DNA of 54,997 bases, taken from NCBI GenBank assembly GCA_021162785.1, contig JAGGYA010000019.1, positions 1 to 54,997 of the forward strand, given 5' to 3'. A model generated the notes under the pieces. It worked only from the letters and a program-made list of their open reading frames with translations. It was not told the origin of the DNA and did no database searches. Each line of letters starts with the position of its first letter. Within the stretch, counting starts at the first letter, position 1. Position numbers and translations under genes: made by a program. Below, one piece after another: positions 31,751 to 51,622 of the stretch. The DNA comes from Candidatus Calescibacteriota bacterium. GTDB taxonomy: Bacteria; CAIJMQ01; JAADFP01.

Positions 31751-31771
31751 GGGATTTTTCCCTTTCTTCAG

Positions 31772-31846
31772 TGCGCCTGGCAGGACTTGAACCTGCGACC
31801 TATGGCTCCGGAGGCCATCGCTCTATCCGGGCTGAGCTACAGGCGC
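31772..31846 (-). tRNA. tRNA-Arg (anticodon CCG)
   Basis: 75 bases, full cloverleaf without an encoded CCA. Acceptor GCGCCTG pairs with CAGGCGC, D arm GCTC/GAGC with A20, anticodon stem ATGGC/GCCAT with loop CTCCGGA so the anticodon is CCG (codon CGG), T arm GCAGG/CCTGC with loop TTCAAGT. It lies 2 bases after the ABC permease stop and 21 bases before map, so it is cut out of the operon transcript. Its acceptor and T arm are identical to the second tRNA-Arg at 51549. Confidence 0.96.
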
Positions 31847-40017: not shown

Positions 40018-40497
40018 ATGAAAGTGATTTATCCTGGAACATTTGATCCCATTACTTACGGCCATATAGATCTCATTGAGAGAGCCTGTCGTATTTTTTC
40101 CTATGTATTGGTGGGGGTAGCGGTTAATCCGCAAAAAAAACCTCTCTTCAGCATTGAGGAACGTGTAGAAATGGTTAGGGAAGCAACTCGAGGATTCTCA
40201 AAAGTTGAAGTAGAAGCTTTTGATGGATTATTGGTGGATTTTGCAAGAAAAAAAGGAATAAAGATTATTTTGAGAGGGGTTCGAGCAATCTCTGATTTTG
40301 AATACGAATTTCAAATGGCTCTTTCCAATCGTAAACTTGCCCCAGATATTGAAACTGTATTCATGATGCCTAAGGAAAATTATTCTTTTTTAAGTTCTAA
40401 AATAATTAAGGAAGCTGCTTCCTTAGGAGCGGATTTAAAAGAGTTTGTGCCACCTTTGGTGGAAAAAAAACTTAAGGAGAAACTCTGGAAAAGATGA
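40018..40497 (+). CDS. coaD: Phosphopantetheine adenylyltransferase
   Basis: 159 residues. Penultimate step of coenzyme A synthesis. Nucleotidyltransferase motif YPGTFDPITYGHIDLIERA, the FDGLLVDFARKKG stretch, RGVRAISDFEYEFQMALSNRKL, and the ISSS-like YSFLSSKIIKEAASLGADLKEFVPP are all normal. Overlaps the nfeD-like gene by 4 bases. Confidence 0.97.
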   Translation: MKVIYPGTFDPITYGHIDLIERACRIFSYVLVGVAVNPQKKPLFSIEERVEMVREATRGFSKVEVEAFDGLLVDFARKKGIKIILRGVRAISDFEYEFQMALSNRKLAPDIETVFMMPKENYSFLSSKIIKEAASLGADLKEFVPPLVEKKLKEKLWKR

Positions 40498-41891
40498 GAT
40501 TTCCTCTCTTCCTCACATTCCTTTTTTCACTTTCCTTAATGGCAGGTGAAATCTACTGGATCCCTCTTAAAGGAGAAGTAGAATGGGGGATGGCTTCTTT
40601 GCTTAAAAGGGGGGTGAAATTAGCAGAAGAAAATGAGGCAGAAGGTATAGTAATTGAAATATCTACTTTTGGTGGCAGATTGGATGCTGCTGTGGAAATG
40701 AAAGATGTTCTTCTCCAGACCACCATCCCTACCTTTGCCTTTGTAAATCCCCGAGCTATAAGTGCTGGTTCTCTCCTGGCTCTTTCCACTCATCATATCT
40801 ATGTGCTTTCCGGTGGTTCCATAGGTGCAGCCACTCCTGTGACTGGTGGAATGGGGGAAATGGAGAAGGCTCCTGAGAAAATCATTTCTTATACTCGAGC
40901 ACTTTTTCGAACCACTGCAGAAGCACGCGGGCATTCCTCCGCCTTAGCAGAAGCATTTGTGGACGAAGATATAGAAGTTGTCCTTACTAAGGAAGGTAAG
41001 ATTGTGAAAAGAGAGGAAGTTGATAAGGAGGAGAATATCAAAAAAGTTATCTGCCCCAAAGGGAAACTTCTCACACTTTCTGGAAAAGAAGCACTGGAAT
41101 ATAAACTTTCTGAAGGGCTCCCCACCTCTAAAGAGGAATTTTTAAAACTGGCTCATCTAAAAGGGAAGAAAATTGTGTATATTCGGAAAAACTGGGGTGA
41201 ACAACTCTCCAGTCTCCTCACAAACTCCACAGTAGCTTCCCTCCTTTTTTCTCTCGGTTTGTTGGGTCTCATTTTTGAACTGAGTATGCCTGGCTGGGGA
41301 GTTTCAGGAACACTTGGAGCAATCTTCCTCATTTTATTCTTTACTGGAAAATATTTTGCGGGGCTTGCAGGTTGGGCTGAGATATTTCTTTTCCTTCTTG
41401 GTTGCACCCTTTTAGCTATTGAAATCTTTCTCATACCGGGGTTTGGAATCACAGGAATTTCTGGGATAATCCTTATTCTGCTTTCTCTTTATCTATCGTT
41501 GGTCAAACATCCTATCCCCAAAAGTCCCTTAGAGTGGGTAGCTTTGAGAGAAGCATTATATTCCCTATCCATTGGTTTTATTCTCTTAAGTGCTGGTTTC
41601 CTTCTTTTCCTAAAATTTTTACCCCAGACTCCTATTTTTTCTCATCTTGGTCTCTCCACCCGTTTAGAAGAGAGTCATGCAATTCCTGACTATTCAGCAC
41701 TTCTTGGAAAAACAGGGAAAACTTTAACACCCATACGACCTGTAGGAAAAGCGATAATTGAAGGTAAATTATATGATGTGGTAAGCGAAGGAGAATTCAT
41801 TGAAAAGAATAAAATAGTGAAGGTAAGACATGTGGAAGGCATGAGAATCGTAGTGGAAGAAGAGAAAAATAAGAATGAGACTCCAGAATAA
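40494..41891 (+). CDS. NfeD-type membrane serine protease, long form
   Basis: 465 residues. Signal peptide (1-18), ClpP/SppA-fold protease domain (about 20-225) with the nucleophile Ser90 in AISAGSLLAL and a likely catalytic lysine Lys129 (APEKIISY), four transmembrane helices (about 248-390) and a C-terminal OB domain (about 400-455, LLGKTGKTLTPIRPVGKAIIEGKLYDVVSEGEFI). In Pyrococcus the homolog cleaves the C-terminus of its stomatin partner. The flotillin FloA and a short NfeD are encoded four and three genes further on, as expected; two-component genes are inserted between. Confidence 0.9.
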   Translation: MRFPLFLTFLFSLSLMAGEIYWIPLKGEVEWGMASLLKRGVKLAEENEAEGIVIEISTFGGRLDAAVEMKDVLLQTTIPTFAFVNPRAISAGSLLALSTHHIYVLSGGSIGAATPVTGGMGEMEKAPEKIISYTRALFRTTAEARGHSSALAEAFVDEDIEVVLTKEGKIVKREEVDKEENIKKVICPKGKLLTLSGKEALEYKLSEGLPTSKEEFLKLAHLKGKKIVYIRKNWGEQLSSLLTNSTVASLLFSLGLLGLIFELSMPGWGVSGTLGAIFLILFFTGKYFAGLAGWAEIFLFLLGCTLLAIEIFLIPGFGITGISGIILILLSLYLSLVKHPIPKSPLEWVALREALYSLSIGFILLSAGFLLFLKFLPQTPIFSHLGLSTRLEESHAIPDYSALLGKTGKTLTPIRPVGKAIIEGKLYDVVSEGEFIEKNKIVKVRHVEGMRIVVEEEKNKNETPE

Positions 41892-43692
41892 ATTAATCAT
41901 ACTCTTTGTTTCCATCTTAATCCTTACCTTTCTGACCAATATTTTCCTGGTAATCTTTCTCATCCGCCATTCTCTAACCCGACTACAACAGGAAGAAATG
42001 ATTATTGCTGGAGAGATGCTTCGCAACTCTTTGGAGGGGAAAATTAGAACTTTTGAGATATTTATTAAGCAACATTTAGTCGACTCTTCCATGGTTAAAA
42101 ACCAAATGAAAGACTTAGAGAAAAAAGTGAGATTCTTTAAGGAAGAAAAAATTCTTTATCTAAAAGAGAACTGGTCTGCCCTGGATAACTCTCAACCCCC
42201 TTTCCCTCTTCTTTTAAACAATCCGTTAAGTAAATATTTAAAAGGACTACTATCAACACCCGGGCTGGAAATAGGAGAAATTGTAATTACAGATAAGGAT
42301 GGTTTCCCCTTAGCTTTCACAAAAATTCCTCCTTCTCCCCTCTTAGATAAAGAAAAATGGTGGAAAAAAACGATAAATTTAGGGTTCTACTCAGGGATAG
42401 TAGAGGATAAACTATCTTTCTCTTATCCAATCTTTGATAATCAAAAATTAATTGGTGTAGTGAGAGTATTAGCAGATATAGATGGTATTTTTAAACCTTT
42501 AAAATTGTTTTCCTTGGGTAAAACAGGAACTGCCCATTTCCTTATCGGTAAAAAACTTGTTCTTTCTTCTTCCAATTGGAAAGGAAGTAAATTGGATTTT
42601 TTCAGAATTTTAGAGAAGGGAGATTACCAAAAGAAAGAATGGTTACTTCGTATTTTCCCTTCTCATCCTTCCCTGGAATGGAAACTCATCCTTATAAAAA
42701 ATCCCCAAGAAGAAGAGTATATTCTTACCTCTGTGATAAAAAATGTCTTTAAACAATTCTTAATATCTCTTTTGATTTTCATACTTATAGGAATTTATTT
42801 TGCCCGTTATCTTACCACCCCTCTAAAACATATAGAAAAATTTGCTAACCGATTAGCTAAAGGCAGGCTTTCTTACAGATTGAGAATAAACACAGGTGAT
42901 GAAATTGAGAGTTTAGCAGAAGCACTTAATACGATGGCACAAAAATTAGAAAAAGCCATGAAAGCTTTAAAGGAAGAAAAGGAAACTATTAAAAAGGTGA
43001 GCGAAACCAAATCTTTATTCCTCTCCGCGGTTTCCCATGAATTCAAAACTCCTCTAACCATCATCACCAATTATGCCCAGCTCTTAGCGACGGGTAAATT
43101 GGGAGAAGTCAATGAAGAACAAAAGAATAGGTTAATAAAAATATCTTTACATTCCCGTTATTTAATTCGATTAGTGGAAAATCTTCTTAATCTTTCTCGA
43201 TTAGAATCAGGTGAATGGGAAACTCAATTTCAGGAGTTTTCTTTACGAAACTTTTTAGAAGAGGTTAAACAGGAATTTTCGCCTCTGGCTAAAAATAAAA
43301 ATATTCAACTCTCTTTAGAACTTCCTGCTCGTCTACCTCGTTTACTCTCTGATCCCTATGCTTTAAGATTAGCCCTGGATAATCTCATAGAAAATGCTAT
43401 TAAATTTACTCCTCCAAAAGGTGAGGTTATAATAAAAGCAGGAAGAACAGATAGTAAGGTGAGAATAGAAGTTGAGGATACTGGACCTGGAATACCTCCT
43501 GAAGAAAGAGAAAAAATTTTTGAACCTTTCTATCGAGTGGATAGGAAGGAAGTAAGAAAAAGCTGGGGTACAGGGTTAGGATTAAGTATTACCCGGGAAT
43601 TGTTAAAAATTTTGGATGGTGAAATTGAAGTGAGAGAGGGTAAAAAGGGGGGGAGTGTGTTTGTAATCACTTTACCTATCAAAGGAGGTTAG
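41875..43692 (+). CDS. Sensor histidine kinase with extracellular Cache domain
   Basis: 605 residues: TM1 (about 7-30), extracellular dCache-like sensor (about 35-285, GEIVITDKDGFPLAFT and SGIVEDKLSFSYPIFDNQKLIGVVRV), TM2 (about 293-313), HAMP (312-365), HisKA with the phosphorylated His388 (SAVSHEFKTPL), and HATPase with N box NLIENAIKFTPP, DTGPGIPPEE and GTGLGLS. Overlaps the long nfeD gene by 17 bases and precedes the receiver gene by 3, so it is made with both. The ligand is unknown. Confidence 0.94.
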   Translation: MRLQNKLIILFVSILILTFLTNIFLVIFLIRHSLTRLQQEEMIIAGEMLRNSLEGKIRTFEIFIKQHLVDSSMVKNQMKDLEKKVRFFKEEKILYLKENWSALDNSQPPFPLLLNNPLSKYLKGLLSTPGLEIGEIVITDKDGFPLAFTKIPPSPLLDKEKWWKKTINLGFYSGIVEDKLSFSYPIFDNQKLIGVVRVLADIDGIFKPLKLFSLGKTGTAHFLIGKKLVLSSSNWKGSKLDFFRILEKGDYQKKEWLLRIFPSHPSLEWKLILIKNPQEEEYILTSVIKNVFKQFLISLLIFILIGIYFARYLTTPLKHIEKFANRLAKGRLSYRLRINTGDEIESLAEALNTMAQKLEKAMKALKEEKETIKKVSETKSLFLSAVSHEFKTPLTIITNYAQLLATGKLGEVNEEQKNRLIKISLHSRYLIRLVENLLNLSRLESGEWETQFQEFSLRNFLEEVKQEFSPLAKNKNIQLSLELPARLPRLLSDPYALRLALDNLIENAIKFTPPKGEVIIKAGRTDSKVRIEVEDTGPGIPPEEREKIFEPFYRVDRKEVRKSWGTGLGLSITRELLKILDGEIEVREGKKGGSVFVITLPIKGG

Positions 43693-43695
43693 AAA

Positions 43696-44106
43696 ATGGC
43701 CAAAATTATGGTGGTGGATGATTCTGAAGACCTGGTGGATTCTATAGCCATTTACTTAGAAAAAGAAGGACATAAAATTGCTCCAGTATACCGAGGAGAA
43801 GAAGCTATATCTTTAGCTCCTATTGAAAAACCCGATTTAATTATTCTGGATGTTAATCTTCCAGGATTGGATGGGTTTGAAGTAGCAAGAAGATTAAGAA
43901 GCCACCGTTTGACTGCTGGTATTCCTATCATTTTTCTGACCGTGCGTTCAGAGTTAAAGGATAGACTCAGGGGGTTAAGTTATGGAGCTTTAGACTATAT
44001 CACCAAACCCTTTTCCATGGAAGATCTGGGAAGAAGGGTAGAAGAAGCCTTAAGAAAAGTGAGAGAAACTAAACGGAAGGTTCGCTGGAGGAGAGCACAC
44101 AGATGA
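43696..44106 (+). CDS. Single-domain response regulator
   Basis: 136 residues. A CheY-type receiver with acidic Asp8/Asp9, phosphoacceptor Asp52 (IILDVNLPGLDGF), Thr82 and Lys104 (YITKPFS). After the receiver only about 16 basic residues ([12 protein letters not shown]) remain, so there is no DNA-binding output domain; it must act through protein contact or pass phosphate on. Cognate of the kinase just upstream. Confidence 0.93.
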   Translation: MAKIMVVDDSEDLVDSIAIYLEKEGHKIAPVYRGEEAISLAPIEKPDLIILDVNLPGLDGFEVARRLRSHRLTAGIPIIFLTVRSELKDRLRGLSYGALDYITKPFSMEDLGRRVEEALRKVRETKRKVRWRRAHR

Positions 44107-44579
44107 TGTGGGTCCCCACCCTATTCATAGGTGGGTTAATTCTCATCTTTTTGGAGGTTTATCTCCCGGGTGGGATCTTAGGGAGTATGGGTGGGGGCAT
44201 GATTTTTGCCAGTATGATCCTTTCTTACCGTTACTATCCCAACCATGCTCCTTTTATAATTGGAGGAGAAATTTTACTCACCGGTTTTGTGCTATACTTT
44301 TGGGTGAAAACCTTCCACACCACTCGGATGGGGAAAAAACTTATACTTGATGAAAGCCTATCTACTATAGAAAGCGACCTGGGAAAATATGTGGGGAAGG
44401 AAGGGATAACTCTAACCCCCTTAAGACCGGTAGGAATAGCAAAAATTGCTGGGAAAAGGATACCTGCTAAAGCAGAAGGGATGTTTATTGGAAAGGGGAA
44501 AAAGGTTCAGGTTATCGGATTTAGTGGTAAGGAGGTAATAGTTAAGGAAATGGAAGAGAAGGAGGGTGAAAATGGCTAA
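44103..44579 (+). CDS. NfeD-like protein, short form
   Basis: 158 residues: three transmembrane helices (about 3-24, 28-46, 56-75) then an OB-fold domain (about 95-155, [43 protein letters not shown]). Lacks the protease domain. Short NfeD proteins pair with flotillins (YuaF/YqeZ type) and tether them at membrane microdomains; floA follows immediately. The OB domain resembles that of the long NfeD upstream. Overlaps the receiver stop (ATGA). Confidence 0.9.
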
Positions 44580-45570
44580 AGGACTGGGTGTTTTCCTTCT
44601 GGTAGTTTTGGGATTAGTGGTACTGGGTACAGTTCTGAGATTCTTTGGACTTTGGTTTAGAGCGCTTCTTTCCGGTGCTCGTGTGGGTATGCTCAATATT
44701 ATCGGTATGGCTTTAAGAAAGGTCAATCCAGCAGTTATAGTTAATTCCAGAATAATGGCTGTAAAAGCAGGGCTGGATATCCCTACCAATGAAATGGAGG
44801 CGCATTATTTGGCAGGAGGAAATGTTATTCGAGTAATTCAAGCATTGATTGCAGCCAGTAAGGCAAATATACCTCTTACCTTCCCGCAAGCAGCAGCCAT
44901 TGACCTGGCAGGTAGAGATGTGTTGGATGCAGTGAGAACCTGTGTAACCCCTAAGGTGATCGATTGCCCTGATCCAACGAAAGGGCCGGGAACAGTTTCC
45001 GCTGTTGCCAAAGATGGGATTCAACTTAAAGCAAAAGCAAGGGTTACCGTGAGAATGAATATTGAAAGACTTGTGGGAGGAGCTACAGAGGAAACTATTA
45101 TTGCACGAGTGGGAGAAGGTATTGTAAGTGCTATAGGTTCTTCAGAAACCCATAAAGAAGTGCTGGAAAATCCAGATGTTATCTCTAAAACAGTGTTGGA
45201 TAAAGGGCTGGATGCAGGCACAGCTTTTGAAATTCTATCCATTGATATTGCAGATGTAGATGTTGGTGAAAACATAGGTGCACGACTCCAGATTAAACAA
45301 GCAGAAGCAGATAAACAGATTGCTCAGGCAAGAGCAGAACAAAGGAGAGCAATGGCAGTGGCACTTGAACAGGAAATGAAAGCTAAAATTGCAGAGATGC
45401 AGGCTAAACTTGTAGAAGCCGAAGCAGAAGTCCCAAAAGCCATAGCCGAAGCATTTCGAAAGGGACAGCTGGGAATAATGGATTACTACAGACTTAAAAA
45501 CATCCAGGCGGATACCAGGATGAGGGAATCCATAGCTGGAGAAGGTAAAAAAGAGAGGGAAAAGAAATGA
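44572..45570 (+). CDS. floA: Flotillin-like protein FloA
   Basis: 332 residues from ATG 44572, which has GGAGGG 5 bases upstream. N-terminal hydrophobic hairpin (about 6-45), then the SPFH/UPF0365 core ([35 protein letters not shown]-like [67 protein letters not shown]) and a C-terminal Ala/Glu-rich coiled coil (about 240-310). It forms membrane microdomains and belongs with the NfeD proteins upstream. Confidence 0.93.
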
Positions 45571-45980
45571 AAATAAATCCTGAGTTAATCGTCAACTTAA
45601 TTATCCTTACTGCATTTGTGATCTTGAGTCTCTTTAGCCTTCTCGGGAAGAAAAAACCAGAAGAAAAAGAAGAAGAGGTTTATATAGCAAGTAAAGAAGA
45701 AGTAGAAAGATTTTTAAAAGAACGAGGAATAATCACACCACCAACCGAAGAAGAGTTAGAATTGAAAGAAGTTACTCCTGAAAAACCATCCCCTCCTGAA
45801 ACAACCGTCCCTCCCCCTAAAAAAGAAGCAATCCCATCCTACTTAGAATACACATATCATCCCCTAAGACGCCCTATCCATCCCACCCTCACCTTCTCCC
45901 CAGAAGAACTGAGAAAAATTATAATATACACCACCATCCTTGGACCGCCTCGAGCAATGGAGGAATGGGAATGGAAATAA
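45567..45980 (+). CDS. Small membrane-anchored protein with proline-rich linker
   Basis: 137 residues. One N-terminal transmembrane helix (about 7-27), a Lys/Glu-rich helix (30-55), a proline-rich linker (about 60-92, including [13 protein letters not shown]), and a compact C-terminal segment with [22 protein letters not shown] do not recognise the whole, but that last segment looks like a small docking motif and the protein overlaps floA by 4 bases, so it may be recruited to FloA domains. Role is inference. Confidence 0.7.
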
Positions 45981-46738
45981 TAAACATGTGGAAAGAAACA
46001 CGGATGGTGGTTTTAACTGCACTTACTGCTGCTGTTTATGCAGCGCTTCTCATCCCTTTTAAAGGGATTCAGATAATTCCTGGAATTACTGAATTCAGAC
46101 CAGCAGCAGTGGTTCCTATAGTTTTTGGGATACTTTTTGGGCCTGCTGGTGCCTGGGGATCAGCAATAGGAAATGTTATTGGGGATTTCTTTGGCACATT
46201 TGGCATTGGAAGCATATTTGGATTCTTTGGTAACTTCTTTTTTGCTCTAACTGCTTATAAACTCTGGAATGGTTTTGGGAAGGAACTCTACATTAAATCT
46301 CGCAGTGATTGGGGAATCTTTGTTCTAACGGTTATAGTTTCCAGCATAACCTGTGGTTTTATTATTGCCTGGGGACTGGAAGTTCTAAAACTCCTCCCTT
46401 TCACTGCTTTGGGGAGTATTATACCCATAAATAACTCCGTGGCAGGCATTATTCTGGGGCCACCGGTTTTCCTTCTACTTTCGCGTAGAGTTAAAAAATG
46501 GGGAATTTACTGGAAGGATCTCCTGCATCCTACGAAAAAAAAGAGGGAAGTTAAAGCAATAGGGATCCTCTTGCTTCTTCTAAGCATCCTGGGAGGATGG
46601 ATTAGCGGACTCCTGATTTCCTCAGGTAAATACAACAATATCTTTTTTGCCTTCAAAGGTGTGAAAGGTGAACCTACTATCACAGTGGGTCTCATACCCT
46701 TTCTCCTCATCTACTTGATATCTCTGTGCTTCCTTTAA
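45971..46738 (+). CDS. ECF transporter S component-like membrane protein
   Basis: 255 residues from ATG 45971 (GGAGGA 6 bases upstream); GTG/ATG alternatives at 45965 and 45986 exist. Six or seven helices; the first part (MVVLTALTAAVYAALLIPFKG, ITEFRPAAVVPIVFGILFGPAGAWGSAIGNVIGDFFG) has the pattern of S components that capture vitamins or metals. The ATPase and T subunits follow in the same operon. Substrate cannot be read; no riboswitch precedes it. A basic loop (about 185-195) splits off the last two helices. Confidence 0.8.
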   Translation: MEIINMWKETRMVVLTALTAAVYAALLIPFKGIQIIPGITEFRPAAVVPIVFGILFGPAGAWGSAIGNVIGDFFGTFGIGSIFGFFGNFFFALTAYKLWNGFGKELYIKSRSDWGIFVLTVIVSSITCGFIIAWGLEVLKLLPFTALGSIIPINNSVAGIILGPPVFLLLSRRVKKWGIYWKDLLHPTKKKREVKAIGILLLLLSILGGWISGLLISSGKYNNIFFAFKGVKGEPTITVGLIPFLLIYLISLCFL

Positions 46739-46743
46739 TTTTA

Positions 46744-48393
46744 ATGCTGGAAGTAAAGAATTTAGAAGTAAAATTATTTCCTTCCCACCGCAAAGTGTTG
46801 AAGAACCTTTCTTTTAATCTAAAAGAAGGAGAAAGCCTTGCCATCCTGGGAGCTTCAGGGTCCGGGAGAACTATTCTTCTCTATACCTTGACCGGTATCA
46901 TTCCCGAGTATATAAAGGGGGAGGTAAACGGCGATATTATACTTGGAGGAAAGAAAATAAACGAAGAAAAACTTAAAGAGAGAGCGCATAAAATTGGTAT
47001 TCTTTTTGAAGATTTTGAAGCACAACTCTTCTCCACCTCTGTGGAACTTGAGCTTGCTTTTGGGCCAGAAAACTTAGGGCTGGGAAGGGAAGAAATATCT
47101 CAGCGTATAGAAAAATATCTTCAACTTACCGGCATACTCCATTTAAAGAGGAGGGAGCCCTCCACCCTTTCAGGAGGAGAAAAGCAAAGAACAGCCCTTG
47201 CCTCCATTCTTACTCTTGAACCCCAGCTTCTTCTTTTGGATAAACCAGTTACGGATCTTGACCCTAAGGGGAGGAAAATCTTGAAGGAAATTCTGGCTAA
47301 ATTAAAGAAGGAAGGGAAAAGCATTATCATTTGTGAAGATGAAATAGAGGAATTATACTCTCAAGATAAATTTCTCCTTTTAAAGGATGGAGAAGTAATT
47401 AAAGAAGGTAGAAGAGAAGAAGTATTAAAAGATGAAAATTTACTTTTAGATACAGGGATAAATCCGCCTTTCTTAGCCCGTTTAAGTAATTATGCTGGAT
47501 GGGATACACTTCCTGAAAATCTTGAAGAAGCAAAGAAAAGATTAGAAAAAGAAGGGTGGAAACTCAAACCCGTCACCTCTCCTCCTTCGCCCACAAGAAA
47601 ACCTCTCTTAGAAGTAAAAGAAGTCACTCACGCTTATGAAAAGGGGAAAGAAGTAATCAAAAATGTTAGCTTTACTGTAGGTAAAGGTGAATTCTTTGCT
47701 TTAATAGGAGAAAATGGAGCAGGGAAAACCACCCTTCTGGAAATAATAAATGGATTAATTACTCCCTCTAAAGGGAAAATATTCCTGGAAGGAGAGGAGG
47801 TTAAAAAAATTCCACCCCAAAAACTGGCTCAGAAAGTGGGATACCTTTTCCAGAATCCTGACCACCAGATATTTTGTAGTACTGTAAAAGAAGAAGTAGA
47901 ATTTACTTTAAGGCTTCTTAAATTTCCAGAAAAGGAAATCCAAATGAGAGTGGAAGAAGCTCTTAGAGCGGTGAAACTTGAGGATAAAAAGGAAGAAGAC
48001 CCTTTCTCTCTTTCCAAAGGAGAAAGACAGAGGCTTGCTCTTGCTTCCCTCTTGGTTAGAAGGCCTTCGCTTATTCTTCTGGATGAACCATCAACCGGGC
48101 TTTCCTACAAGGAACTTCAAGGATTCATGTCTCTTTTAAAAAAACTCCATGAAGAAGGAACAACCATCCTCATGACCACCCATAACCTTTCTCTGGTGTG
48201 TGAATACGCGGAAAGATGTTTATGGCTGGAAAAAGGAGAAATTAGACTTCTGGGAGAACCCAGAGAAGTGTTTACAAAGATGAATAAAATGGATTCCCCT
48301 TTACCTCTTCCTCCCTGGGTATCTCTTTCCCAAAGCATGGGAGTAACTCTCCTCTCTTGGGAAGAGTGGAAAAACTCCCTTTTTAAAACTTAA
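46744..48393 (+). CDS. ECF transporter ATPase, two fused domains, first one degenerate
   Basis: 549 residues from ATG 46744. Two ABC ATPase domains joined by a linker around 250-285. Domain 2 is intact: Walker A GENGAGKT (322-329), Gln370, signature LSKGERQR, DE at 447-448, H-loop His480. Domain 1 keeps the signature LSGGEKQR (142-149) but has Arg42 instead of the Walker A Lys (GASGSGRT), Glu89 instead of the Q-loop Gln, Lys167 after the Walker B Asp, and Glu198 where the switch His should be. One of the two ATP sites built from these domains should therefore be poor at hydrolysis. Confidence 0.92.
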   Translation: MLEVKNLEVKLFPSHRKVLKNLSFNLKEGESLAILGASGSGRTILLYTLTGIIPEYIKGEVNGDIILGGKKINEEKLKERAHKIGILFEDFEAQLFSTSVELELAFGPENLGLGREEISQRIEKYLQLTGILHLKRREPSTLSGGEKQRTALASILTLEPQLLLLDKPVTDLDPKGRKILKEILAKLKKEGKSIIICEDEIEELYSQDKFLLLKDGEVIKEGRREEVLKDENLLLDTGINPPFLARLSNYAGWDTLPENLEEAKKRLEKEGWKLKPVTSPPSPTRKPLLEVKEVTHAYEKGKEVIKNVSFTVGKGEFFALIGENGAGKTTLLEIINGLITPSKGKIFLEGEEVKKIPPQKLAQKVGYLFQNPDHQIFCSTVKEEVEFTLRLLKFPEKEIQMRVEEALRAVKLEDKKEEDPFSLSKGERQRLALASLLVRRPSLILLDEPSTGLSYKELQGFMSLLKKLHEEGTTILMTTHNLSLVCEYAERCLWLEKGEIRLLGEPREVFTKMNKMDSPLPLPPWVSLSQSMGVTLLSWEEWKNSLFKT

Positions 48394-48395
48394 AA

Positions 48396-49130
48396 ATGGT
48401 TTTTCTCTACATAGAAAGGGAGACCTTCTTCCATCGATTGGATCCCCGAACGAAACTCTTTTTCCTCTTTGTAATGCTGGTAACTTTCCTTTCCCTTCCC
48501 CTCCCTTACTTTTTGATCCCTGCCCTTATTACCCTTCTTCTGCTCCTTTTCACACATGCTATAACCAGATTAAAACCCCTTCTCCCTTTACTTTTCATTA
48601 TTCTCCTCTTCTCCACTTTTGTGTGGGGGATAAAGGGAGATAACGACATTCTTTTCTTTAACTACGAAAATCTTTTATTTGGTTTTCTGACCGGATGGAG
48701 AATAGATTTTATTATGTTAGCGGGGCTATTATTCCTTGCTACTACAAGAAATGAAGAAATTTTCGCTGCCTTACTCAAACTCCACCTACCTTATGCTTTT
48801 AGCTTTGCCTTTTCAACCGCTTTAAGGCTTCTCCCTTCTTTTACAGACACAGGTTTCACCATACTTAAAGCCCAGAGAACACGCGGGCTCATCTTCACAG
48901 GTGGAATAATTGCCCGGCTGAAATCCTATATCCCTTTAATCACCCCTCTTTTTCTATTAACCTTAAGAAAAACCCATATAATGTCCATGGCCTTGGAAAG
49001 TAAAGGATTTGGTAATCCCACCCGCACATCCTATATCCAGCTTCGTCTATCTCCGCTGGACTACCTTTCCTTCTTTCTTCTTTTCTCTCTTCTTTTTCTC
49101 CCTCTAATTTTGAAAAAAATTGGGATATGA
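48396..49130 (+). CDS. ECF transporter T component (EcfT)
   Basis: 244 residues, about five transmembrane helices. Opening YIERETFFHRLDPRTKLFFLFVML is typical of EcfT. The coupling helices carry the two short basic motifs that contact the ATPases, AQRTRGLIF near 162 and ALESKGFGN near 200 (usual form ARxxRG / AMxARGF). It follows the ATPase gene by 2 bases and completes the S-A-T set. Confidence 0.9.
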   Translation: MVFLYIERETFFHRLDPRTKLFFLFVMLVTFLSLPLPYFLIPALITLLLLLFTHAITRLKPLLPLLFIILLFSTFVWGIKGDNDILFFNYENLLFGFLTGWRIDFIMLAGLLFLATTRNEEIFAALLKLHLPYAFSFAFSTALRLLPSFTDTGFTILKAQRTRGLIFTGGIIARLKSYIPLITPLFLLTLRKTHIMSMALESKGFGNPTRTSYIQLRLSPLDYLSFFLLFSLLFLPLILKKIGI

Positions 49131-49147
49131 GAAAGGAGGGGATTAGT

Positions 49148-51535
49148 ATGAAAAAATTAACCATTATCTATCTAACTTTATTTATTGCCTTTGCTGTAGA
49201 TCCTCACCCTATTTCCCTTTCCGGAAAATGGGAACAGCTAAAAGGATTAGATGGTGGAGATATGCATTTCTTGTACGCAACAAAAGACGGTATTCTTTTC
49301 GTTTCTCACGGCTTTAGTGGCGTATGGAGAAGTACTGATAGAGGAAAACACTGGGAGCTCATAAAGCAGGAGGATTTTGTAGATACCATTTTCTTTTCCA
49401 TGGCAGAAAAAGGAAACTTACTCTATGCAGGAACAAATAAGGGGCTCTGGATGAGCAAAGATAAAGGTAAAACCTGGAAAAAAATCATCACAGGATTTGA
49501 TGAAGTAGACACTGGGAGATACCCCGTTTTTTCTCTTGCAGTAGTGGATGACAAACTCTTCTTTTCTGCGGTCTTGGAAAAATCTTTAAGAAGAAGACAA
49601 CCCGGTTTATCCAAAATTTTTTGCCTTTATCCAGATGGCAAAATCAAACAATTTCCCGTTCCAGAAGGGTCTAATCTGGAAGCTGTATTAGCAGGGAAAT
49701 ACCCTTACCTTTTTCTTTCCTCTATTTACTCTGGTCTTTATGTATACTCTTTCCAGGAAAACCATTGGGAGAAACTCCTTTCTACTAAAACCACCAAGGT
49801 ATTTGTAGACGATAATTATGATCTATATGTAGGTACCTTTGGAGACTGGTACTATATTGGCAGAAAAACTCAAGAAGGCTGGAAATGGAAAAAAATTACT
49901 ATTCCTCTGGAAGCTTTCCACAAAGGTAGAGGATTTCCTCGCCGGGAAAGGAGTCATCTGCAAAGAAGAGGAAAATTTCTCTACCAAGAAAAACAGTATT
50001 CTCATCGGCAAGGTTTCTTCCAAAAGGAAGAGAATTTCCAAACCTTTTTCCATTTCATTCTCCCCGATCCAGTGAATAAAAAATACTTGTGGTTTGGAGC
50101 AGGTGGAATAGGAGGGTTTTACACTATCAGCGCCAGGAGGAAAGGCACCTCTTTCACAGGCACGGGTTTTTATGAAAATGGAAGATGGCTAAGTGTAAAT
50201 ATATCCAGCCGAAACTATGCCCATTCCTTAGCTTTTCTTCCAGGTGAAAAAATATATACTCAGTATGGAGAAATTACAAAAACTGCTCTTATTACCCAAG
50301 CGGGTAGAGGCTGTGTACAGAGAACGGAGGATAGTGGGAAAACCTGGATACATTCCTACGAAGGAGTTTATGGAGATACTGTAAATGCAGTAAATATTAT
50401 CAAAAAAGGACTCCTTAAGGGCTACATTGTGTGTACGGCAGTTTCGGGGATAGAAATAGCTACAGATTATGGAGATAAATGGATACCTGGTATAGACTTT
50501 ACTCTTGGACCAGAAATAAAAAAGAAAAAAGAAAAGTTCTTTGGGCAAGAAGGATTCCAAAGACCCACTGGAAGCCCAAGAAAAAGAAAGTTTAGAGAGC
50601 TCCCCAGCTTTGGTTACTCCACCAGTAGTTCCACCACTCCTTCCCCTTTCGCATCCTTGGGCCGAAAGGGAATTGAACTCCCTGGATATTCTTGGTGTGC
50701 AATTTCTCCCCCAGAAAAAATAAAAGGTAAATATGACCTCCTCATCTCCACTGGATACCCTACTGCTTTTGGAAGAGAAAGCAGAGGAGACGGTGTCTTT
50801 GCTTTTTCCTTTTCATCTTTAAAAACTGGCCGGCCAGAAAAAGAAAAACTCCTCTCTGGTCCCCATTATGAAATGGTAATAGTGGAAGGGAAACTTTATG
50901 CAGGGAATATGGAAGGTGGAGTAGATATCCTTGATTTAAGAACATTTGCTCAAGGAAAAATTGCATTGGAAGGAGCAGGAAATTTGGTAAGGGAATTTGA
51001 TGGAAAAATCTTTATTGCCACTTATAAGAGAAGAGCATTCCCAAGATATAGACAAACAGCAAGTGACGGAAAGCCTTTTTATATGGGGGACATGTGGAGA
51101 ATGCAGGGAGAAGATGGAGGACTTTACTTTTACGACCACCATTCTGGAGAACTTAAAAAAATCTATTCAGGATATGTAATAAGTTTCTTCATAAAAGATA
51201 ACCAACTCTTGGCACTTACTCCCAATGCACTTGTCTTCAAACCCACTATATTTGGAGAAGAGGAAAAAAGAGTGGAGTTTCAGGAAATAATGTTCAGCGA
51301 TATGGCTGTGGACTGGGAGAATGGCGTCATCTTTCTCTCTAACTTTGACAGTGATACAGCGGGTGTATTCTGGACCACGATTGAAGAAGTAAAAAATGGG
51401 ATATTAAATTTAAGAAAGTTCACCCATGGACTCCTAACTAATCGGGTAAGAAATCTCTCTTATTATCAAGGTTATCTCTTTGCAGGTACAGAAGGTCTTT
51501 CTGTATGGAGAGTGAAAGTTAAAATTTCCAGATAA
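49148..51535 (+). CDS. Large exported propeller protein with BNR/Asp-box repeats
   Basis: 795 residues from ATG 49148 (strong AGGAGGGG site). Signal peptide about 1-20. Asp-box motifs of the S-x-D-x-G-x-x-W type recur: RSTDRGKHWELI near 60, MSKDKGKTWKKI near 105 and RTEDSGKTWIHS near 390. Such repeats build beta-propellers found in sialidases, photosystem assembly factor Ycf48 and VPS10 proteins; no sialidase RIP motif is seen, so I do not call it an enzyme. A Lys/Arg/Pro-rich insert lies about 455-500. It is the last gene after the ECF transporter; substrate capture is possible but unproved. Confidence 0.82.
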   Translation: MKKLTIIYLTLFIAFAVDPHPISLSGKWEQLKGLDGGDMHFLYATKDGILFVSHGFSGVWRSTDRGKHWELIKQEDFVDTIFFSMAEKGNLLYAGTNKGLWMSKDKGKTWKKIITGFDEVDTGRYPVFSLAVVDDKLFFSAVLEKSLRRRQPGLSKIFCLYPDGKIKQFPVPEGSNLEAVLAGKYPYLFLSSIYSGLYVYSFQENHWEKLLSTKTTKVFVDDNYDLYVGTFGDWYYIGRKTQEGWKWKKITIPLEAFHKGRGFPRRERSHLQRRGKFLYQEKQYSHRQGFFQKEENFQTFFHFILPDPVNKKYLWFGAGGIGGFYTISARRKGTSFTGTGFYENGRWLSVNISSRNYAHSLAFLPGEKIYTQYGEITKTALITQAGRGCVQRTEDSGKTWIHSYEGVYGDTVNAVNIIKKGLLKGYIVCTAVSGIEIATDYGDKWIPGIDFTLGPEIKKKKEKFFGQEGFQRPTGSPRKRKFRELPSFGYSTSSSTTPSPFASLGRKGIELPGYSWCAISPPEKIKGKYDLLISTGYPTAFGRESRGDGVFAFSFSSLKTGRPEKEKLLSGPHYEMVIVEGKLYAGNMEGGVDILDLRTFAQGKIALEGAGNLVREFDGKIFIATYKRRAFPRYRQTASDGKPFYMGDMWRMQGEDGGLYFYDHHSGELKKIYSGYVISFFIKDNQLLALTPNALVFKPTIFGEEEKRVEFQEIMFSDMAVDWENGVIFLSNFDSDTAGVFWTTIEEVKNGILNLRKFTHGLLTNRVRNLSYYQGYLFAGTEGLSVWRVKVKISR

Positions 51536-51548
51536 AGAAGTTCTGGTG

Positions 51549-51622
51549 TGCGCCTGGCAGGACTTGAACCTGCGACCTTGGGGTCCGCAACCCCACGCTC
51601 TCTCCAGCTGAGCTACAGGCGC
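51549..51622 (-). tRNA. tRNA-Arg (anticodon GCG)
   Basis: 74 bases, full cloverleaf, no encoded CCA. Acceptor GCGCCTG/CAGGCGC, D arm GCTC/GAGC with A20, anticodon stem TGGGG/CCCCA, loop TTGCGGA, so the anticodon is GCG (codons CGC, CGU), T arm GCAGG/CCTGC. Acceptor, T arm and part of the D arm match the CCG tRNA at 31772 base for base. Most bacteria read these codons with an ACG anticodon edited to inosine, so GCG is unusual. It lies 13 bases after the propeller gene, in the opposite direction. Confidence 0.93.

Follow-up and report, generated by a model that had tools for sequence, protein, structure and literature searches.

ATP sites in ABC transporters are composite, each being built from the A-loop, Walker motifs, Q-loop and H-loop of one nucleotide-binding domain and the signature motif of the other (PMC7756269). 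At the interface between the domains are the D-loops, and in TM287/288 one of them, that of the canonical domain, extends into the degenerate site (PMC7756269). In the same transporter a D-loop Asp matters little when it is at the degenerate site and much when it is at the consensus one (cited in PMC7544095). In the ECF-CbrT transporter of Lactobacillus delbrueckii, the module closes and the coupling helices of EcfT bend when ATP is bound at both sites, and each single catalytic Glu-to-Gln mutant is reported to have a severe growth defect (PMC10368641), a result which supports the premise of the original prediction that in known ECF importers both sites are functional. Degenerate ATP sites are, as that prediction stated, known in exporters (PMC7756269), but they are not limited to them, and RbsA and NupO, two ATPases of importers with fused domains, are described as having one (PMC11466899). 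How a transporter may come to tolerate such a site is illustrated by human ABCB1, in which the mutation E556M alone gives a dead protein that traps ATP and stops transport, while the addition of three residues from BSEP, one of them an Arg in place of the opposing signature's first Gly, brings transport back, avoids ATP occlusion and weakens ATP at the dead site (PMC7544095). We found no report in the open-licence literature of a naturally degenerate ATP site in an ECF transporter, and a design with one dead site has apparently not yet been described in ECF importers.

The window analysed here is a stretch of 54,997 nucleotides which constitutes one whole contig of a 949,252-base draft assembly (27 contigs, 64% complete). 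On its forward strand lies an operon with the gene order S-AA'-T, which starts with a 257-aa S-component of the QueT family (45965..46738; PF06177, 64.3 bits, cut-off 33.7) and continues with a 549-aa fused EcfA-EcfA' ATPase (46744..48393), containing two ABC_tran stretches, and a 244-aa EcfT of the CbiQ family (48396..49130; PF02361, 94.1 bits, cut-off 25). The coordinates and frame originally given for the ATPase gene were correct, with an ATG at 46744 and a stop codon ending at 48393, and a longer version starting from a GTG at 46726 is possible. The protein, in which domain 1 spans approximately residues 1-245 and domain 2 approximately residues 286-515, scores above the cut-offs of two equivalog ECF_ATPase models (TIGR04521, 394 bits against 330; TIGR04520, 389 bits against 315). 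The EcfT falls below the stricter cobalt CbiQ model TIGR02454 (54 versus 111.8 required) and has both coupling-helix motifs, TRG and SKG, when its motifs are aligned with those of 17 relatives; the Lys of SKG is also found in seven of the 16 relatives with letters at that position. The locus therefore contains the parts by which an ECF transporter is recognised, namely a fused EcfA-family ATPase pair, an adjoining membrane S-component and an EcfT with two coupling motifs, and the operon would encode a dedicated, group I-like ECF importer.

The same arrangement was seen around relatives of the ATPase. A phmmer search of the flanked loci of 23 relatives identified an S-component homologue in 16 and an EcfT homologue in 17, so that S-AA'-T is a recurrent operon, and contig ends may be the reason for some of the missing neighbours. 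When neighbouring genes from 22 loci were clustered, only the ATPase, EcfT and the S-component were widely shared among the first 15 clusters. The S-component is linked to QueT, a family associated with queuosine precursors, by its Pfam match. No riboswitch, preQ1 included, reached the gathering threshold in the window or in the loci of 13 relatives, where Rfam matched only tRNAs, and because neither approach pointed to a ligand, a substrate assignment was dropped.

Directly upstream of the operon is a cluster (40494-45570) of NfeD-type genes (40494-41891 and 44103-44579) and a FloA flotillin-like gene (44566-45570), which surrounds an apparent sensor kinase and response regulator, both named from sequence. 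Downstream, the EcfT stop codon overlaps by a few bases with the start of an 802-aa ORF (49127-51535), which matches Sortilin/BNR repeats weakly and is possibly co-transcribed with the importer. Two tRNA-Arg genes, with anticodons CCG (31771-31846) and GCG (51548-51622), lie on the reverse strand of the window.

For comparison we collected 35 close fused relatives, with 36-44% identity to the window protein, from 60 genomes, phylum searches and a 386-genome sample; a further search of 43 genomes gave no additional close relatives. All 35 were aligned, L011 being without the start of domain 1 and L042 without the end of domain 2, in both cases at contig ends. In what follows, site 1 denotes the composite ATP site made of the A-loop, Walker, Q-loop and switch (H-loop) residues of domain 1 and the signature and D-loop of domain 2, and site 2 the reciprocal one.

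All five cis motifs of site 1 deviate from the family. Three of the losses had been placed in the correct columns from the start: the Walker A Lys is replaced by Arg42 (AGA, 46867..46869; Lys in 34 of 34 relatives with letters), the Q-loop Gln by Glu89 (GAA, 47008..47010; Gln in 35 of 35) and the catalytic Glu of Walker B by Lys167 (AAA, 47242..47244; Glu in 35 of 35). The switch His is also lost, though one residue further on than proposed. Glu198, which had been taken for the switch position, is rejected as such by the alignment: it is the ordinary acid that precedes the His in the family motif [E/D/T]-H (Glu in 30 of 35 relatives), and the His column holds Asp199 (GAT, 47338..47340; His in 33 relatives and Tyr in two). 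Of the four positions named at the outset, this is the only one that the alignment moved, and by a single residue. Two further losses in domain 1 are those of the A-loop Tyr, which is Leu11 in the window (46774..46776; Tyr in 33 of 34 relatives with letters), and of Thr44, a nucleotide-binding residue.

The elements that site 1 receives in trans from domain 2 are altered as well. The domain-2 signature reads LSKGE (48010..48024), and at its first Gly there is Lys in 27 and Arg in eight of the 35 relatives, so that this signature is non-canonical in the window and in every close relative; its Ser is moreover Thr in 33 of the 35. The D-loop of domain 2 has Ser454 (TCC, 48103..48105) where all 34 relatives with letters have Asp. 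The description of domain 2 as intact therefore holds for its Walker A, Q-loop, Walker B and H-loop but not for its signature or its D-loop, which, together with Leu11 in the A-loop of domain 1, had been overlooked. As the trans elements of site 1 are changed too, the argument that the protein combines one dead and one live composite site is supported beyond the residues on which it was first built.

Site 2, in contrast, is complete. Domain 2 supplies the A-loop Tyr298 (47635..47637; Tyr in 33 relatives and Phe in two), the Walker A Lys328 (47725..47727; Lys in 35 of 35), the Q-loop Gln370 (47851..47853; Gln in 35 of 35), the catalytic Glu448 (48085..48087) and the switch His480 (48181..48183), the last two being invariant in the 34 relatives with letters there. 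From domain 1 come the D-loop Asp173 (47260..47262; Asp in 35 of 35) and the signature LSGGE (47167..47181), which was rightly said to be kept and is LSGG in all 35 relatives. The catalytic Glu is thus missing from one composite site only (Lys167 versus Glu448), and it is at that site that the trans signature is non-canonical, as expected of a degenerate site.

In order to quantify this asymmetry, positions at which 90% or more of the other sequences agree were sorted by composite site. The window protein is changed at 9 of 15 such positions in site 1, at 0 of 19 in site 2 and at 13 of 89 elsewhere (Fisher's test, site 1 versus site 2, p = 1e-4; site 1 versus elsewhere, p = 4e-4), and no relative has more than three site-1 changes by the same count. 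The list of whole motifs behind the 9/15 and 0/19 figures was compiled after the main changes were known, and the D-loop was allotted to the opposite site on the basis of published structures; leaving out position 454 gives 8 of 14 for site 1. A test on matched positions (6 of 6 against 0 of 6, p = 0.002), likewise made after the changes were known, is descriptive. On this count a single composite ATP site has suffered the loss, in a gene that is not generally decaying.

Because both faces of site 1 are affected, misplaced motifs and sequencing errors are poor explanations. A sequencing, assembly or binning artefact could be suspected given that the losses occur in a single genome, known from a fragmented and incomplete draft assembly, and that four of the changes are one base away from the family codon. 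However, Tyr11 to Leu and Asp454 to Ser each require at least two base changes, the reading frame and codon use are clean, and errors would not be expected to fall together in a single composite site (p about 1e-4), and we consider an artefact very improbable.

Decay of a transporter under relaxed constraint, in which the whole system has become dispensable and erosion happened to begin at site 1, deserves more attention. The window protein has the longest branch (1.65) of the 24-row close clade and its EcfT the longest branch in the EcfT tree, and some relaxation of the whole system is therefore possible. The 13 changed positions outside both sites point in the same direction. So does the distribution of the gene, as a fused ATPase was found at E <= 1e-40 in only one of seven genomes of the phylum, the source genome itself, and a gene missing from the other six could be a dispensable acquisition. 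Against this, random decay would not pick out one composite site built from both domains while sparing every conserved position of the other, all three ORFs are open, codon use is normal, with domain 1 resembling other genes of the window, and the terminal branch of the S-component (0.75) is the fourth of 17 and not extreme. A version of this explanation restricted to domain 1 was rejected on branch lengths, identity and codon use: the terminal branches of the window row are similar for domain 1 (0.95) and domain 2 (0.89), and the two domains are on average 38.7% and 42.0% identical to those of the 35 relatives, a gap of 3.3 points that is not unusual among the relatives, whose own gaps run from -2.5 to +7.9. 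We therefore regard decay of the transporter as unlikely.

Of 18 matches to the ATPase in the source genome, the window ORF is the only one that spans the whole query. The closest relatives found reach 44% identity, and none of the relatives has the losses. A scan of genome contigs gave one fused relative (L015) among nine loci, and this protein belongs to a set of 11 distant fused ECF ATPases (L013-L015, L090, L094, L096-L100 and L104), all of which keep the Walker A Lys, the Q-loop Gln and the catalytic Glu of domain 1. Among the 46 fused ECF ATPases compared, neither the Gln nor the Glu is lost in any, and the Lys is lost in none of the 45 with letters there, so that the co-occurrence of these changes, which the original prediction had proposed to look for in aligned fused EcfA proteins, was not observed. 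Milder departures are more widespread. The domain-2 signature differs from LSGG in five of the ten readable distant rows (L097 has unread letters), and a separate group of fused ECF ATPases, L098, L099 and L100, has Gln at the domain-1 switch position and keeps the Walker residues. L038 and L042, which belong to the same genus, have Tyr for the domain-1 switch His and Ala instead of Pro after Walker B, their other residues being kept, and it is possible that they represent an earlier stage of site-1 loss. Judged from the aligned sequences, asymmetry is common in fused ECF ATPases, and the wholesale loss of site-1 chemistry is found in the window alone among those compared. Since this is a single genome and the losses have no counterpart in the relatives, conservation cannot show selection on the dead state.

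The reading we favour, with moderate confidence, is that the operon encodes an ECF importer in which the fused ATPase acts as a motor with a single hydrolytic site, probably using one ATP per stroke. Site 2, with the Walker motifs of domain 2 and the LSGGE and D-loop of domain 1, would bind and hydrolyse ATP. Site 1, with the Walker motifs of domain 1 and the LSKGE and D-loop of domain 2, would not hydrolyse ATP, would hold it loosely at most and would serve as a hinge. By analogy with characterised ECF transporters, ATP at site 2 would close the domains, bend the coupling helices of EcfT and eject the emptied S-component, and hydrolysis at this site would reopen the module, upon which a loaded S-component could dock and topple. 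The weakened contacts of site 1, where the A-loop Tyr, the Walker A Lys and the D-loop Asp are lost and the signature carries a Lys, would prevent ATP from becoming stuck where it cannot be cleaved, and such trapping is a likely reason why ordinary ECF transporters do not tolerate a plain Glu-to-Gln change. In favour of this reading, the S-component and EcfT are also intact and keep their genomic context. The original expectation that site 1 should bind but hardly hydrolyse ATP was too confident in its first half, because with the A-loop Tyr, the P-loop Lys and Thr44 gone binding of ATP at this site may be weak or even absent.

It could also be that site 1 is a structural lock free of nucleotide, in which salt bridges involving Lys167-Asp199, Glu89 and Arg42 fill the pocket and hold one half of the dimer closed while site 2 alone cycles. 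The disappearance of nucleotide-binding as well as catalytic residues is consistent with such a lock, and the exchanges of Gln for Glu, Glu for Lys and His for Asp would together leave the net charge approximately unaltered, as compensatory substitutions might; as a hypothesis, Lys167 and Asp199 have the look of a pair in which the charges of the original Glu and His were swapped. Yet Pdr5 is reported to retain ATP in its degenerate site (PMC8421411), and the AlphaFold model, built from a two-row alignment, has a pLDDT of 44, too poor for distances to be read from it. We think a lock of this kind quite unlikely, although binding of ATP in the similar site of Pdr5 also means that the merely loose binding assumed for site 1 in a single-site motor is not assured.

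The relatives may indicate how a single-site motor could have arisen. In all 35 the domain-2 signature is basic at its first Gly and the catalytic Glu is still in place, and the altered signature is therefore possibly a permissive change separable from the loss itself. The simplest reading is that the permissive signature came first and that the lineage of the window then lost the rest of site 1. A more ambitious proposal, which we offer tentatively and which may well go too far, is that this is the first known ECF transporter to use one ATP per stroke: the basic domain-2 signature, fixed in 35 relatives from several phyla, would have loosened site 1, one lineage would then have discarded every catalytic and binding residue of both its faces, and the dead site would perhaps be a hinge without nucleotide, salt-bridged through Lys167 and Asp199. 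If real, a natural one-site ECF motor would mean that one hydrolysis suffices for expulsion and docking of the S-component, it would provide a minimal system in which to ask what the second ATP is for, and its family would allow the order of events in the evolution of degenerate sites to be tested.

Among described proteins with one degenerate ATP site, RbsA and NupO, the fused sugar and nucleoside importer ATPases of Bacillus subtilis, resemble the window protein in missing a Walker A Lys, but it is their second domain that has the degenerate Walker motifs, and they belong to an importer class other than ECF (PMC11466899). Pdr5, as described, also has one site (NBS1) which deviates in the Walker B Glu, the Q-loop Gln and the trans signature, next to a canonical one; however, it is an exporter with its own transmembrane domains and its D-loops are unchanged, whereas the window protein has lost the trans D-loop Asp (PMC8421411). 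In BSEP (ABCB11) NBD1 has lost its catalytic Glu and NBD2 has a basic residue in place of its signature's first Gly (PMC7544095), the same Gly that is changed throughout the family of the window protein. Only four residues are reported to set the interface between the BSEP domains apart from that of ABCB1 (PMC7544095), whereas the losses in the window protein extend to the Walker A, Q-loop, switch and D-loop residues. In its overall design the system resembles group I ECF transporters with a fused EcfAA', with which it shares the S-AA'-T operon, the matches to ECF_ATPase models, the two coupling motifs of EcfT and an S-component of the QueT family, and from which it differs in having a site 1 without the A-loop Tyr, the Walker A Lys, the Q-loop Gln, the catalytic Glu, the switch His and the trans D-loop Asp.
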